Source: an uncultured Fimbriimonas sp.
Lineage (GTDB): Bacteria > Armatimonadota > Fimbriimonadia > Fimbriimonadales > Fimbriimonadaceae
Assembly (NCBI GenBank): GCA_945952345.1
Contig: CAMFIS010000007.1
Span: forward strand, 1-46,257
Length of the DNA: 46,257 bases
Direction: 5' to 3'
Shown here piece by piece: positions 33,328 to 38,240 of this stretch (within the stretch, counting starts at the first letter, position 1; each line of letters starts with the position of its first letter). The position numbers were made by a program, and so were the translations under genes. The notes under the pieces are model-generated. The model was not told the origin of the DNA. It searched no databases and saw only the letters and a program-made list of their open reading frames with translations.

Positions 33328-34065
33328 ATGAACCGAGGCATATACACCGCCGCACGAGGAATGGCGACCACCGCTCAGTGGATGGACGTCATCTCGAACA
33401 ACCTGGCGAACATCGGAACCAACGGATACAAGGCCGACAACCTCGCCTTTGCCGACGTCATGATGAAGAATCTTTATGGCGAAGGTGGCAACGGTGGATT
33501 CATCGGAACCATGGGCAATGGTCCCGATTCGGTTGCGGTTAGCGTCGATCGAAGCGTCGGCAACATCAAGCCCACGGGCAACCCCCTCGACGTCGCATTT
33601 CGAAATTCGCAGGGAATGTTTGCCATCCAGAAGGACGGCAAAACCTACTACACACGAAATGGGCACTTCTCGATGGACAGCAGTGGCCAGTTGGTCAACG
33701 ATCAAGGTTATCCCGTCCTCGACAATCGCGGAAGCGTGATCAGAGCTACGGGCAAGGACCAGGTCAAGATCGACGAGCAGGGTTACGTTCACCAGGGTGA
33801 CAACACTTTAACCCAGCTCGGAGTCTTCGAAACCGACTTCCAGAAGGTCGGTGTGAATCTCTGGAGTCCCGAGGATGGCAAAACGCCTGTCCCGGTCACA
33901 AACCCGGATATCGTTCCCGGCGCGCTGGAAGCCAGCAACGTCGAGCCAGTCACCGCTATGGTTCAGCTCATTACGGTTCAACGCAATTTCGAGATGTCCC
34001 AACGGTCGATCCAATCCCAGGACGACATGACGGGCAAGCTCGTGACCCTTATGGAAAAACACTAG
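33328..34065 (+). CDS. flgF: Flagellar rod protein FlgF
   Basis: Proximal/distal rod subunit, 245 residues. The N-terminal helix has the rod signature GIYTAARGMATTAQWMDVIS with SNNLANIGTNGYK; the middle beta-domain shows GMFAIQKDGKTYYTRNGHFS and GYVHQGDNTLTQLGVF; the C-terminal helix is LEASNVEPVTAMVQLITVQR with MTGKLVTLMEKH. FlgF and FlgG are close relatives. I call this one FlgF because it is shorter, comes first and precedes a more typical FlgG. As first gene of the operon it sits right behind the sigma-28-type promoter. It has no signal peptide because rod proteins leave through the flagellar type III gate. Confidence 0.88.
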   Translation: MNRGIYTAARGMATTAQWMDVISNNLANIGTNGYKADNLAFADVMMKNLYGEGGNGGFIGTMGNGPDSVAVSVDRSVGNIKPTGNPLDVAFRNSQGMFAIQKDGKTYYTRNGHFSMDSSGQLVNDQGYPVLDNRGSVIRATGKDQVKIDEQGYVHQGDNTLTQLGVFETDFQKVGVNLWSPEDGKTPVPVTNPDIVPGALEASNVEPVTAMVQLITVQRNFEMSQRSIQSQDDMTGKLVTLMEKH

Positions 34066-34146: not shown

Positions 34147-34935
34147 ATGTTAAGATCGCTCAATACGTCGGCAACCGGAATGGTTGCCCAACAATTTAAT
34201 CTGGACGTTATCTCGAATAACCTCGCGAACGTCAACACAACTGGGTTCAAGCATCAACGTGCTGAATTTCACGACTTGGTGTACCAGACCGTCCAAGCCG
34301 CAGGTACCGCCGTCGGGCAAAATTTTAAGACGCCGACAGGTGTCCAGTTTGGTCTTGGTTCGATGGTTTCGGCCACGGCCAACGACCTCACTCAAGGCGC
34401 ATCCCTTTCCACCGGAAACCCGCTCGACCTCATGATTGTCGGCGATGGCTTTTTCCGCGTCATGAAGCCGGACGGAAGCTTCGGCTACACTCGTGACGGC
34501 AGCTTTAAGAAGGACGCGACCGGCTTGTTGGTGAACAGCGGCGGCTATCCGCTGGTGCCTCAAGTTACGATTCCGGCCGGTGCGACCCAAATCAATATTG
34601 GCGCAGACGGAACGGTCGTTGCAGTTATGCCCGGCAATTCGACGCCAACGAAGATTGAGCAGATCACGGTGGCAATGTTTGCCAACCCGGCTGGACTTAC
34701 TCGAACCGGAGACAACCTGTGGGCCGAGAGCGCTGCCAGCGGAGCCCCCAACCTTGTACCGGCTGGGACCGATGGCTCGGGAACGATTTCATCTGGCTAT
34801 CTCGAAGGGTCGAACGTATCGGTCGTCGAGGAAATGGTCCGAATGATCAGCGCCCAGCGAGCCTACGAAATCAACTCGAAGGCGATCCAGACTTCGGACG
34901 ACATGCTGTCGATCCTTAACACCCTCAAGAGGTAA
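34147..34935 (+). CDS. flgG: Flagellar distal rod protein FlgG
   Basis: 262 residues, the standard FlgG length. The N-terminus reads MLRSLNTSATGMVAQQFNLD with VISNNLANVNTTGFK; the FlgG-specific segment FHDLVYQTVQ and TPTGVQFGLGS follow. The beta-domain contains GDGFFRVMKPDGSFGYTRDG and LLVNSGGYPLVPQ. The C-terminus is GYLEGSNVSVVEEMVRMISA with QTSDDMLSILNTLKR. It forms the driveshaft that passes through the P and L rings encoded just downstream. An 81-base gap separates it from flgF; flgA follows after 2 bases. Confidence 0.96.
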   Translation: MLRSLNTSATGMVAQQFNLDVISNNLANVNTTGFKHQRAEFHDLVYQTVQAAGTAVGQNFKTPTGVQFGLGSMVSATANDLTQGASLSTGNPLDLMIVGDGFFRVMKPDGSFGYTRDGSFKKDATGLLVNSGGYPLVPQVTIPAGATQINIGADGTVVAVMPGNSTPTKIEQITVAMFANPAGLTRTGDNLWAESAASGAPNLVPAGTDGSGTISSGYLEGSNVSVVEEMVRMISAQRAYEINSKAIQTSDDMLSILNTLKR

Positions 34936-34937
34936 TC

Positions 34938-36101
34938 ATGATCGGTAGCATTCTTCTTACTCTCGCCGCTGGGCAAATGCCCGCACTCTATGTGCGCATC
35001 GAAGGCGACGGCTATCTTCGATTCGCCAAGGGAACACAAATCGTCTACGCCCGCCAAGCCAAGCTCACTCCGACGGCCCAAGGTTTGGTCGCTAGCGATG
35101 GCTCGATGTTGGTGCCGCGACTGGTCGCTCCTGCCAATACGACAAAGCTCGCGGTGTCGCTCGACGGTGCGATTTCGGCTCAGAGTCCGGCAGGTACCAA
35201 ATCTCTTGGACGCCTTGTTATCGCGGTCTTCGATGCCAAGGCAGGGTTTGTCAAGGTCGGAAACTACGTATCGACGACGGCGAAACCCACACTTACCAAT
35301 CCTGGCGAATGGATCGCTGGAGTTATCCGATCGACTCCGCTGGTTGCGACGAAGACGACGCAGGGCAATCAAGTATCGAAGCCGAACGTCCAGACTGGTT
35401 CGGAAGCATTTTATAAGCCTACGGCAGAGGTCGTCATCAACTCGACTTCACAAGTCAAGAGCGATCACATACTTCTCGGCGAGATCGCCAAGATCGATGG
35501 AGATCCTGAGCTGAAAGAAAAGCTCAGCGCAGTCGACTTTGGCAAGGCGCCCATCTATGGTGCGAAGCGTGGAATGACGCTCATTCATGTTCGCGCCAAT
35601 ATCCTTGCCGCTCATATCGATCTGACGAACGTGAAAATCACGGTGCCGGAGGGCGCATCAGTGGAACGTGAGAGCCAACGAGTTGAACCATCTGACATAG
35701 CGAAAGCAGTTTCGGATGCCCTCAAGTCCAAGTTTGGATTCGATACGAAGCTTCAAGAAAAGCACACCATCTACGCGTCGAATGTTCCGCTGGGCAAGCT
35801 CAACCTCGATGTAACCCAGCTCACGATGGGCAATTCCGAAGTGTCGGGCTATGTGGATATTTCGGTGGATGGCAAATTGGTGAACTCAACTCGTGTCGAG
35901 TATGAACTGCCAGCCCTACCGGGTGTGAAGCGCGGCGATGTCGTTCGCCTTCGTATGAAGTCCAACTTTGCCACTGTGGAAGTGAGTGGAAAAGCCGCCT
36001 CCGCTGCCTACCTTGGCCAAACTCTTTCGGTCCAAACCGACAACGGTACGACTGTGACCGGCACCCTCATCGGGGCCAACCTTGTGGAAGTGAAACTATG
36101 A
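34938..36101 (+). CDS. flgA: FlgA, P-ring assembly chaperone, with N-terminal rod-like domain
   Basis: 387 residues; ordinary FlgA proteins have ~220-240. Residues 1-13 are a short signal-like stretch. Residues ~18-125 resemble the beta-domain of rod proteins: EGDGYLRFAKGTQIVYAR, GLVASDGSMLVPRLVAPANT, LAVSLDGAISAQ and LGRLVIAVFDAKAGFVKVGN line up block by block with the corresponding segments of FlgG encoded just upstream. Residues ~162-387 are the FlgA part with the SAF-type fold (HILLGEIAKIDGD, SSVERES-like EGASVERESQRV, PALPGVKRGDVVRLRMKS, LSVQTDNGTTVTGTLIG). FlgA guides FlgI polymerisation around the rod in the periplasm. The stop overlaps flgH (ATGA). Confidence 0.85.
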   Translation: MIGSILLTLAAGQMPALYVRIEGDGYLRFAKGTQIVYARQAKLTPTAQGLVASDGSMLVPRLVAPANTTKLAVSLDGAISAQSPAGTKSLGRLVIAVFDAKAGFVKVGNYVSTTAKPTLTNPGEWIAGVIRSTPLVATKTTQGNQVSKPNVQTGSEAFYKPTAEVVINSTSQVKSDHILLGEIAKIDGDPELKEKLSAVDFGKAPIYGAKRGMTLIHVRANILAAHIDLTNVKITVPEGASVERESQRVEPSDIAKAVSDALKSKFGFDTKLQEKHTIYASNVPLGKLNLDVTQLTMGNSEVSGYVDISVDGKLVNSTRVEYELPALPGVKRGDVVRLRMKSNFATVEVSGKAASAAYLGQTLSVQTDNGTTVTGTLIGANLVEVKL

Positions 36102-36715
36102 GAATCCTACCGATCGTCCTTCTCGCCTTTACCGCCGTGGCTTTTGGCCAGCAAGTGGATTCCAGCGATAACTTCGGCTCCCTTACGCCCAAAAAGTACA
36201 ACTCGCCTTTCAAGGCTCGCACTGCCCATCGGGTTGGCGATCCTCTCACGGTGATCATCAGCGAATCCAATACTTCGCAATACCAAAACGATATGCAGAA
36301 CACGAAGAAGGAGACCGTCAAGAACGATCCGACGTCGATTCCGCTAGCCAATTGGCTGAAGATCGGGTTGCTCTCTACTCTCACCGGGGCATCTTCGTCG
36401 GGTACTGACCAGGCTCTGCAAACCTCGGGCACCTCGAACCAACGGGCCACGATGACAGCCAAGGTCGCCGTTCTCATCAAACAGGTTTTGCCCAATGGCA
36501 CCGTGGTGGTCGAAGGTACTCGAGCCGTGAAGTACGGCCACGAGACGCAGCAGGTCACTCTTTCGGGTATTTGCCGGGTCGACGACATCCGAACCGATAA
36601 CACCGTGCTCAGCGAGAACCTCGCCAACGCGGAGATCAAGAGCGAGGGCGCCGGTGCAATATACAAGAAGCAGAAGCAAGGTGTGATTTCCAAGATCCTC
36701 GGGTGGCTGTTCTAA
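36098..36715 (+). CDS. flgH: FlgH, flagellar L-ring protein, without lipobox
   Basis: Outer-membrane ring around the rod, 205 residues. Family segments are HRVGDPLTVIISESNTSQ, TMTAKVAVLIKQVLPNGTVV and VEGTRAVKYGHETQQVTLSG with ICRVDDIRTDNTVLSENLAN, ending in a hydrophobic ILGWLF. In enterobacteria FlgH is a lipoprotein with an LxGC signal. Here the signal peptide is MRILPIVLLAFTAVAFGQQ with no Cys near the cleavage site, so it should be processed by signal peptidase I and cannot be lipidated at the N-terminus. Start ATG overlaps the flgA stop, and its own stop overlaps flgI. Confidence 0.93.
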   Translation: MRILPIVLLAFTAVAFGQQVDSSDNFGSLTPKKYNSPFKARTAHRVGDPLTVIISESNTSQYQNDMQNTKKETVKNDPTSIPLANWLKIGLLSTLTGASSSGTDQALQTSGTSNQRATMTAKVAVLIKQVLPNGTVVVEGTRAVKYGHETQQVTLSGICRVDDIRTDNTVLSENLANAEIKSEGAGAIYKKQKQGVISKILGWLF

Positions 36716-37911
36716 TGAAGATGCTTTCCCTCATCGCGGTCCTCATGGTCGCCGGTTCTAGCCTTGCTCAGCGCTCTGGCCCTCCCACCGATGGTCAAGA
36801 TTCCAAGCGACCCAGCATCGCGGACGAAATGAGCCGACGCATGAACAACATGCAGAAGGCGGAAGCCAGCGGTGTCAATGTACGGCTGAAGGATGTTGCG
36901 CGATTCCGCGGAATCCGGTCGAACTCTCTCCTAGGCGTCGGCGTTGTGGTTGGCCTCAAAGGCACAGGGGACACGCGAAAGAATCCGCAGAGCGCAGCCG
37001 CGATCGCGAACTACATGAAGTCACTTGGCCAGGATGTAAATCCTGCGCTGATCGAGCCCAAGAACTGTGCGTTAGTCTTTGTCCGCGCCGAACTGCCTGC
37101 GTTCGCCAACAATGGCCAGCAGCTGGACGTCACGGTCGCTTCCGCAGGCGATGCCGGAAGCCTGCAAGGTGGGCTTTTGCTCCGAACCGAACTGTTCGCC
37201 GTGGGCGATAACGAAACGGTTTATGCGCTCGCCGAGGGCGCCGTCTCAATCGGAGGCTTTGGCGCGTCACAGGGCGGAACATCGGCTTCCGTCGGATTCC
37301 TGACTGCCGGCCGCGTTCCAAGCGGAGCGATGGTCGAAAAAGGCGCACCGACCAAATTGGTTTACGACGGCAAGATGTACGTGGAGCTCCTCGATGCCGA
37401 CATCACGACCGCAAGCCGGATTCAGGATGCCATCAATAAGAAGTATCCCGAGTTCCTTGCTGAGGCGGAGACGGGCGGAACCATTTCGGTCTCGTTGCCA
37501 AAAGGCATGTCTCCCGTCATGGCGATGTCCAAGTTAGAAGAGATCAACGTCATGGTGGATAACGCCGCCGTAGTCGTCATCAACGAAAAGACGGGCTCGA
37601 TCGCCATTGGTGGCAATGTGCGCATCGCACCGGTTGCTATTGCTAGCGGTGGTATCAGCGTCAAGATCGAAGAACAGAACACGGTTTCACAGCCGAATGC
37701 GTTCGGCAAGGGCGACACGGTTCCGGTAAAGAATACGTCGGTTTCGACAGACCAGAAAGATGCCGATATCGCGGTCATGGCTCCCAATACCACGGTGGCC
37801 GACCTCGCCCATATCTTCCAAGAGCTGCACCTCAAGGCCAGCGACATCATCAATATCCTTCAGATTCTGCGAGAGCAGGGTGCGCTGAAGGCACGGCTGG
37901 TGATTCAATGA
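36715..37911 (+). CDS. flgI: FlgI, flagellar P-ring protein
   Basis: Periplasmic ring subunit of 398 residues from ATG 36715, which overlaps the flgH TAA by one base (TAATG); the frame extends a few codons upstream but this start gives the signal peptide KMLSLIAVLMVAGSSLAQ. Family sequences: RLKDVARFRGIRSNSLLGVG, VVGLKGTGDTRKNPQSAAAI, VRAELPAFANNGQQLDVTVA, GGLLLRTELF and the C-terminal VADLAHIFQELHLKASDIIN with ILQILREQGALKARLVIQ. There is a Ser/Pro/Lys-rich stretch of ~40 residues after the signal, longer than in E. coli. It is assembled by FlgA from the same operon. Confidence 0.97.
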   Translation: MKMLSLIAVLMVAGSSLAQRSGPPTDGQDSKRPSIADEMSRRMNNMQKAEASGVNVRLKDVARFRGIRSNSLLGVGVVVGLKGTGDTRKNPQSAAAIANYMKSLGQDVNPALIEPKNCALVFVRAELPAFANNGQQLDVTVASAGDAGSLQGGLLLRTELFAVGDNETVYALAEGAVSIGGFGASQGGTSASVGFLTAGRVPSGAMVEKGAPTKLVYDGKMYVELLDADITTASRIQDAINKKYPEFLAEAETGGTISVSLPKGMSPVMAMSKLEEINVMVDNAAVVVINEKTGSIAIGGNVRIAPVAIASGGISVKIEEQNTVSQPNAFGKGDTVPVKNTSVSTDQKDADIAVMAPNTTVADLAHIFQELHLKASDIINILQILREQGALKARLVIQ

Positions 37912-38240
37912 TAAACGCCAGCCTTCAAGCGGCCAAAGCCGTTGCCGTCGTCAACGAAGCCAAGACTGACTTGGCCACGTTGAAGAAGGCAACCGACGGA
38001 CTCGAAGCGTTCATGTTCAAGTCGCTCCTGCAAAGCGCAGGCGGCAAGAAAGGACTCTTTAGCGCCAACGTTCCCGGCGCAGAAATCTACCGCGACATGT
38101 TCGAGCAGAACCTGTCCGATGTGATGGCTCAGCGCGGAACTCTTCACATCAGCGACACCATCTTCAACAAGGTGGCACCCCTCGCCTTGGCTCAAGCCAA
38201 GACCCGTCTTAGACTACAAACGATCGAGAAAAAAGCATGA
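37908..38240 (+). CDS. flgJ: FlgJ rod-binding domain protein (no muramidase)
   Basis: 110 residues, equal to only the N-terminal half of enterobacterial FlgJ. The rod-binding domain is clear: LEAFMFKSLLQSAGGKKGLF, then AEIYRDMFEQNLSDVMAQRG and a C-terminal helix pair. The peptidoglycan-hydrolase half is absent, as in many non-proteobacterial flagella, so another enzyme must open the wall for the rod. The start ATG overlaps the flgI TGA (ATGA) and the stop overlaps the next start in the same way. Confidence 0.88.
   Translation: MINASLQAAKAVAVVNEAKTDLATLKKATDGLEAFMFKSLLQSAGGKKGLFSANVPGAEIYRDMFEQNLSDVMAQRGTLHISDTIFNKVAPLALAQAKTRLRLQTIEKKA

Follow-up and report, generated by a model that had tools for sequence, protein, structure and literature searches.

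The P-ring assembly chaperone FlgA is described in structural terms for Salmonella (3vjp and 3tee). This protein carries a typical signal sequence and three domains, D1 to D3, of which D2 is a beta-clip domain, and no rod domain (PMC4895218). D3 binds FlgI and the flexibility of FlgA is required. For the beta-clip domain, Matsunami et al. suggested a role in targeting peptidoglycan; the sorting of FlgI to the rod and its release from FlgA are stated as unknown in the same paper. FlgA of Thermotoga maritima (3frn) has an extra N-terminal domain, D0, at residues 17-84 (PMC4895218). For the distal rod protein FlgG, the D1 domain was modelled as residues 91-222 in PMC5288503. The outer surface of the rod is acidic, with Lys-63 and Lys-95 of FlgI facing Asp-109, Asp-154 and Glu-203 of FlgG, and mutating the two lysines impairs P-ring formation, according to PMC8298488.

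The window analyzed here is a stretch of 46,257 nucleotides from an uncultured Fimbriimonas sp. Its FlgA is a P-ring assembly chaperone in which a complete FlgG D1 domain separates a short hydrophobic N-terminus from the FlgA core. The gene order is flgF, flgG, flgA, flgH, flgI and flgJ-like, with flgA beginning two bases past the flgG stop codon, and the order flgF-flgG-flgA-flgH-flgI is common to the loci of relatives. The features are:

33328..34065, + strand: flgF-like rod gene (TIGR02490 E 5e-47, 160 bits, below the cut-off of 178.5)
34147..34935, + strand: flgG distal rod gene, its D1 being the source-type domain of the FlgA insert (profiles and alignment)
34938..36101, + strand: flgA fusion gene, 387 aa (coordinates include the stop)
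34938..34985, + strand: FlgA residues 1-16, short uncharged hydrophobic N-terminus, an atypical signal peptide (K/R counts at residues 2-12)
34986..35339, + strand: FlgA residues 17-134, FlgG-type D1 domain (profiles, alignment, fold)
35340..35417, + strand: FlgA residues 135-160, linker, predicted to be disordered (pLDDT under 50 at 136-159)
35418..36098, + strand: FlgA residues 161-387, FlgA core without the SAF/beta-clip domain (profiles, structure comparison)
35922..36098, + strand: FlgA residues 329-387, FlgA D3, the FlgI-binding domain in Salmonella
36098..36715, + strand: flgH L-ring gene
36703..37911, + strand: flgI P-ring gene, with an N-terminal extension ahead of the FlgI domain (domain from residue 61)
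37908..38240, + strand: FlgJ-like rod-binding gene, 110 aa (PF10135 E 1.1e-6; FlgJ model E 9e-4)

In the FlgJ-like gene (37908-38240), the rod-binding domain PF10135 was the sole Pfam family matched. Across the clade, the linkers between D1 and the FlgA core are rich in T, P and A (composition taken from 20 of the 41 fused rows).

A FlgG-type D1 domain in FlgA

An earlier note, made from the sequence alone, had claimed that this FlgA is fused to a rod-protein domain resembling that of FlgG, and profiles from Pfam and TIGRFAM, shuffled alignments and the predicted fold all confirm it as D1. Pfam PF22692 (FlgE/F/G D1) matched residues 17-134 at E 1.1e-7 (32.3 bits, cut-off 27). The FlgG equivalog TIGR02488 matched the insert at E 2e-11, covering FlgG 91-205, and the window's own FlgG aligned to it at E 2e-9. 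Set against the published extent of FlgG D1 (91-222), this coverage means that the insert is approximately the whole domain. Its alignment to the window's own FlgG scored 113, compared with 33 +/- 5.4 for shuffled sequences, and none of 2000 shuffles reached 113. When the predicted structure was compared with known ones, the N-terminal part of FlgA had the D1 fold. Chance resemblance to FlgG D1 was ruled out by the shuffles together with the profiles, the fold and the conservation of the domain.

FlgF was weaker as a source of the insert: the alignment score was 38, equalled or exceeded by 109 of the 2000 shuffles, and the genome's own FlgG beat its own FlgF in 39 of 41 genomes. Among solved structures, a profile built from 22 fusions found FlgG at E 3e-14 and FlgF at 0.0024, and sequence profiles also prefer FlgG over the hook protein FlgE for the insert. 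The FlgA copy nevertheless differs from the D1 of the distal rod protein (6jf2, 7cbm, 8wki). Its charge is shifted, as detailed below, and the FlgG motif TRDG, present in 54/54 FlgG, is retained in only 7/41 FlgA copies, so that normal rod packing is not conserved. With E values allowed to reach 10, Pfam detected neither of the D0 domains (Flg_bb_rod and Flg_bbr_C) in the fusion and both of them in FlgG; the copy is joined to a chaperone instead. PF22692 was matched at E 0.01 or better in 27 of the 49 FlgA of the order. As 38 of these are fused, at least 11 fused FlgA are too divergent for the Pfam model. The ChapFlgA profile matched the window FlgA with 31.5 bits (cut-off 23.8) over profile positions 58-122 only, and reached E 0.01 in 40 of the 49.

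Searching the genome with PF22692 recovered FlgG, FlgF, a third protein that we read as probably hook-like, FlgA, and a fifth match in an MFS protein. This AmpG-family permease-like protein with a D1-like domain (L005:3-1124, - strand) has relatives in L138-L147 and L149; two full-length ones matched the AmpG muropeptide permease model TIGR00901 with E values of 1e-28 and 2e-43, short of the 350-bit cut-off. The insert lies between what we read as TM5 and TM6, which by the usual MFS topology would be a periplasmic loop; the same loop is short, by eye, in L150-L157. Six of the 13 permease inserts were matched best by the FlgA-D1 profile (best domain E 2e-12), six by FlgF and one (L148) by none. 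Derivation of the permease domain from FlgA-D1 was not supported, the joint clade having a support of only 53. A search for D1 alone in 61 genomes returned, as judged by position and length, only frames of FlgA, FlgG, some FlgF and the permease-like proteins. The permease domain also occurs in a single-contig genome (G008) in which no FlgI was found, so that association with the rod is not a constant property of this type of D1. These observations suggest that a D1 domain of the rod is not confined to the flagellar axis and can be reused in periplasmic proteins of other types.

Distribution and history of the fusion

FlgA architecture was surveyed across Armatimonadota, as the earlier note had proposed, in 251 evenly drawn genomes of the phylum (completeness 80 or more; matches listed to about 69 bits). 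D1 and the FlgA core shared one stop-free open frame in 71 of them, by manual count: 65 in family f1, five in f5 and one in f3. A frameshift, or two genes wrongly called as one, is thereby ruled out. In the remaining families the profile spans flgG and flgA only through stop codons, and no D1-plus-core match without a stop was found there among the matches listed. In f2 (13 genomes), f4 (one genome) and the f5 genome G046, matches covered the core only or, in G037 and G039, ran over an internal stop.

Among the 75 genomes drawn from f1, nine of the ten unfused ones had no match and G008 had a weak one, which we attribute to its AmpG-family permease-like protein and not to FlgA. D1 was kept in all 65 f1 genomes with a detected FlgA. 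When FlgI was searched for in the 10 unfused f1 genomes and three others, one of the 13 matched, with a fragment; the f1 genomes missing the fusion thus mostly lack a detected P ring.

A scan of named genomes with one pattern returned six loci, assigned to Armatimonadetes (2), Chthonomonas sp. (2), Fimbriimonadaceae (1) and a Methanoregulaceae archaeon (1), the last taken to be a mislabelled bin. Armatimonadetes bacterium Uphvl-Ar2, described as likely motile with complete flagellar pathways (PMC5629041), is among the named carriers. Searches of a large protein set with two query sets returned at least 35 and at least 31 proteins, among about 8000 scored candidates sharing most words; P0014 and P0031, the sole organism-named proteins in these listings, are from armatimonads, and P0037 shows ChapFlgA only. 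A literature search on FlgA, the P ring, SAF, export and Armatimonad topics returned no description of FlgA with a rod D1 among the papers listed, in line with the earlier note's remark that none was known. The PF13144 and PF22692 pair is present in the precomputed Pfam annotation of database proteins, so the architecture is already visible in databases even though we found no paper on it.

For detailed comparison, 41 fused loci were chosen from the 71 (window included), together with 11 unfused loci of the order and nine from other families. A tree built from 142 D1 sequences placed the 41 FlgA copies in a single clade (SH-aLRT 100), separate from FlgF (98) and from FlgG; it had few columns for its number of rows and many unresolved forks. 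A recent copy of each genome's own FlgG, or gene conversion, was not supported, given this single clade; the own FlgG beat a distant FlgG as match to FlgA-D1 in only 13/41. A concatenated tree of the FlgA core, FlgG, FlgH and FlgI (61 loci) required two changes, which we read as one gain and one loss of D1, and two independent gains were set aside on this basis. The tree of the FlgA core alone needed three changes, with the f3 row placed ambiguously among unfused rows, so that a single origin for f3 rests on the D1 clade. Taken together, the trees support the view that the fusion most likely arose once, in the ancestor of f1, f3 and f5.

In the lineage of the loss (L119, genome G046), the FlgA core groups with f5 (99) and FlgA has no D1 and a normal-looking signal peptide. 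This genome has lost D1 and retains FlgA, FlgG, FlgH and FlgI, which indicates that the domain is dispensable there. Elsewhere D1 is under purifying selection, with dN/dS of 0.07 and 0.09 in the two of five pairs where it was computable (dS near saturation). Directly upstream of flgA, flgG was found in 41/41 fused loci (32 bases or less) and in 12/20 unfused ones, among them 9/9 of the loci outside the order; 7 of the 20 unfused had no flgG in the fetched stretch. The two genes were thus probably neighbours before the fusion occurred, and duplicating part of flgG would be an easy origin.

Missing beta-clip domain, N-termini and export

Two observations go beyond the earlier note: the missing SAF domain and the short signal peptide. 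At E 0.01, SAF was matched in 0/49 FlgA of the order (38 fused, 11 unfused) compared with 8/9 outside it. In the window FlgA the ChapFlgA match begins at profile position 58, while one FlgA of another family matches 2-122 plus SAF. The domain is also missing in 11/11 unfused relatives, including families without the D1 graft, and the simplest reading is that SAF would have been lost before D1 was gained.

FlgA of Thermotoga maritima likewise carries an extra N-terminal domain. Residues 17-283 of 3frn superposed inside residues 162-387 of the window FlgA (over 119 residues with an rmsd of 10.2 A, a poor fit across several domains), and not on 17-134; the Thermotoga D0 is therefore apparently not the counterpart of the rod domain. 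Structure comparison shows the FlgA D3 fold retained in the window protein, where D3 is the putative FlgI-binding part.

N-termini were compared on the longest frames, and doubtful starts among FlgH, FlgI and unfused FlgA (for example L085 FlgH, L082 FlgI, L127 and L137 FlgA) blur the following counts. K or R occurred at residues 2-12 in 6/41 fused FlgA compared with 38/40 FlgI and 39/40 FlgH of the same genomes; it occurred in 8/11 unfused FlgA of the order and in 9/9 outside it. The first glycine of D1 lies at a median of residue 23 in fused FlgA. In the window the frame is open for just 6 codons past the ORF (393 vs 387), so the FlgA start is not much farther upstream. FlgI differs as well: the median number of residues ahead of its domain is 66 in 35 f1 loci, 40 in five fused f5/f3 loci, 28 in nine unfused loci of the order and 27 in nine outside it. 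A longer FlgI N-terminus thus co-occurs with the fusion at the level of the clade. In the window, the extra residues between signal peptide and FlgI domain (36703-36885) are typical of f1.

In principle the extreme N-terminus of the fused FlgA could have ceased to be a proper Sec signal and act instead like the hydrophobic N-terminal signal of early flagellar substrates. The protein would then be a pseudo-rod subunit that leaves the cell by the flagellar export channel and comes out at the tip of the growing rod; there the charge-shifted D1 would plug onto the rod and the FlgA half would collect periplasmic FlgI. In PMC8983047 and PMC10936197, the GRM is placed at FlgD 36-40 and a C-terminal export signal within FlgG 218-260. 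The fused stretch corresponds to FlgG ~91-219, so that FlgG's own GRM and C-terminal type III signals would be missing, and we consider this route very improbable. If it were true, P-ring assembly would be coupled to rod growth through a shared delivery route.

Charge of the domain and its possible role

The mean net charge of D1 was +1.0 in FlgA (n=41), -6.7 in FlgG (n=54) and -4.0 in FlgF (n=47). Individual FlgA copies ranged from -6 to +7 (24 positive, 8 zero, 9 negative), all 41 exceeding the FlgG of their own genome; in the window the values were +7 for FlgA-D1 and -4 for FlgG. The alignment columns used here include a few residues flanking D1 on each side; summed over the columns occupied in half or more of the rows of each set, FlgA-D1 carried +0.98 and same-genome FlgG -4.24. 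The charge of the FlgA core was +3.4 whether D1 was present or absent. Columns that are mostly basic, and new compared with FlgG, are R28 (mean column charge +0.93), R92 (+0.83), K116 (+0.78) and R131 (+0.66). At K116 the acid near FlgG-200 is reversed to K/R, from -0.63 in same-genome FlgG to +0.78, and D117 is mostly gone in the FlgA copies.

Some acidic positions persist. The hairpin at 109 holds an acid in 27/41 FlgA copies and K/R in 30/41, with the aligned column 109 itself mostly free of acid. The position of FlgG-154 is acidic in 32/41 FlgA copies, compared with 12/41 same-genome FlgG. This difference is weak evidence: the unfused f5 relative also has no acid there in FlgG, and the genomes are not independent. 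Asp-154 of FlgG, which PMC8298488 terms highly conserved on the rod surface, gives way to N, S, G, A or T in 29/41 FlgG of fused genomes and kept in 12/13 unfused ones; the window keeps it (34606-34608). On these data, D1 is unlikely to reproduce the acidic surface of the rod faithfully.

We hypothesize, with a probability of roughly 0.38, that the D1 of FlgA is a tethered putative docking module that brings FlgA-FlgI to the rod; the docking, its partner and the order of events are inferred. With the SAF/beta-clip domain absent, the D1 module may have taken over the placement of FlgA-FlgI, tethered to the FlgA core by a flexible linker. The neutral-to-basic D1 would dock on the acidic FlgG rod, or on the end of the rod as it grows, with FlgI bound by the C-terminal FlgA domain; FlgI could then be handed over and set free at the site of P-ring closure. 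A rod docker is expected to be neutral or basic, to be independent of the core and to be conserved, and the FlgA copy mostly fits this. The nine net-negative copies and the acids remaining at 154 and in the 109 hairpin speak against it, as do the mostly lost TRDG motif, the loss of D1 in G046 and the related D1 in permease-like proteins.

The earlier note had proposed that a rod-surface copy on the chaperone could template assembly of the FlgI ring or keep it open until the rod is there. Here, D1 would imitate FlgG and bind the inner face of FlgI, blocking early closure or templating the ring before the rod is present. A complete FlgG-type D1 and the acids at 154 and in the 109 hairpin are in keeping with such mimicry. 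The same can be said of FlgI itself, which has K/R in 37/40 and 30/40 at the columns that we take to be the Lys-63 and Lys-95 positions, but the window's own FlgI has G at the latter. A rod mimic directed at FlgI would be expected to have an acidic net charge. The copy generally lacks one and is above its own FlgG in all 41 genomes, with K/R in the 109 hairpin and a reversed charge near 200, and this puts docking above both mimicry, which we regard as rather unlikely, and anchoring in the envelope. While the FlgG-like D1 fused to FlgA thus stood, the data argue at best weakly for the templating surface.

Anchoring, in which D1 would bind peptidoglycan or the envelope in place of SAF/beta-clip without recognizing the rod, appears slightly less probable still. 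In its favour, SAF, a domain suggested to target peptidoglycan (PMC4895218), was found in none of the 49 FlgA of the order. FlgA-D1-like domains in six AmpG-family permease-like proteins, where they probably sit in a periplasmic loop, and the permease-like D1 in G008, with no detected FlgI, are also consistent with it, although the unfused relatives lost SAF and gained no D1. D1 domains are not known to bind peptidoglycan, which counts against anchoring as well. It is improbable that D1 is a passive ornament, left by a partial duplication of the neighbouring flgG and merely stabilizing or shielding FlgA. A tandem slip would be easy with flgG directly upstream in every fused locus, and one lineage (L119) did without the domain, but its retention in every f1 genome with a detected FlgA, the purifying selection and the basic columns absent from FlgG all argue for a more specific role.

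The family-wide fusion of chaperone and rod domain, combined with a missing beta-clip domain and one secondary loss of D1, amounts to a natural set of constructs for asking whether FlgA must recognize the rod. A chaperone carrying a re-charged domain of the rod, the flagellar drive shaft, may show how the P ring is placed on the rod.
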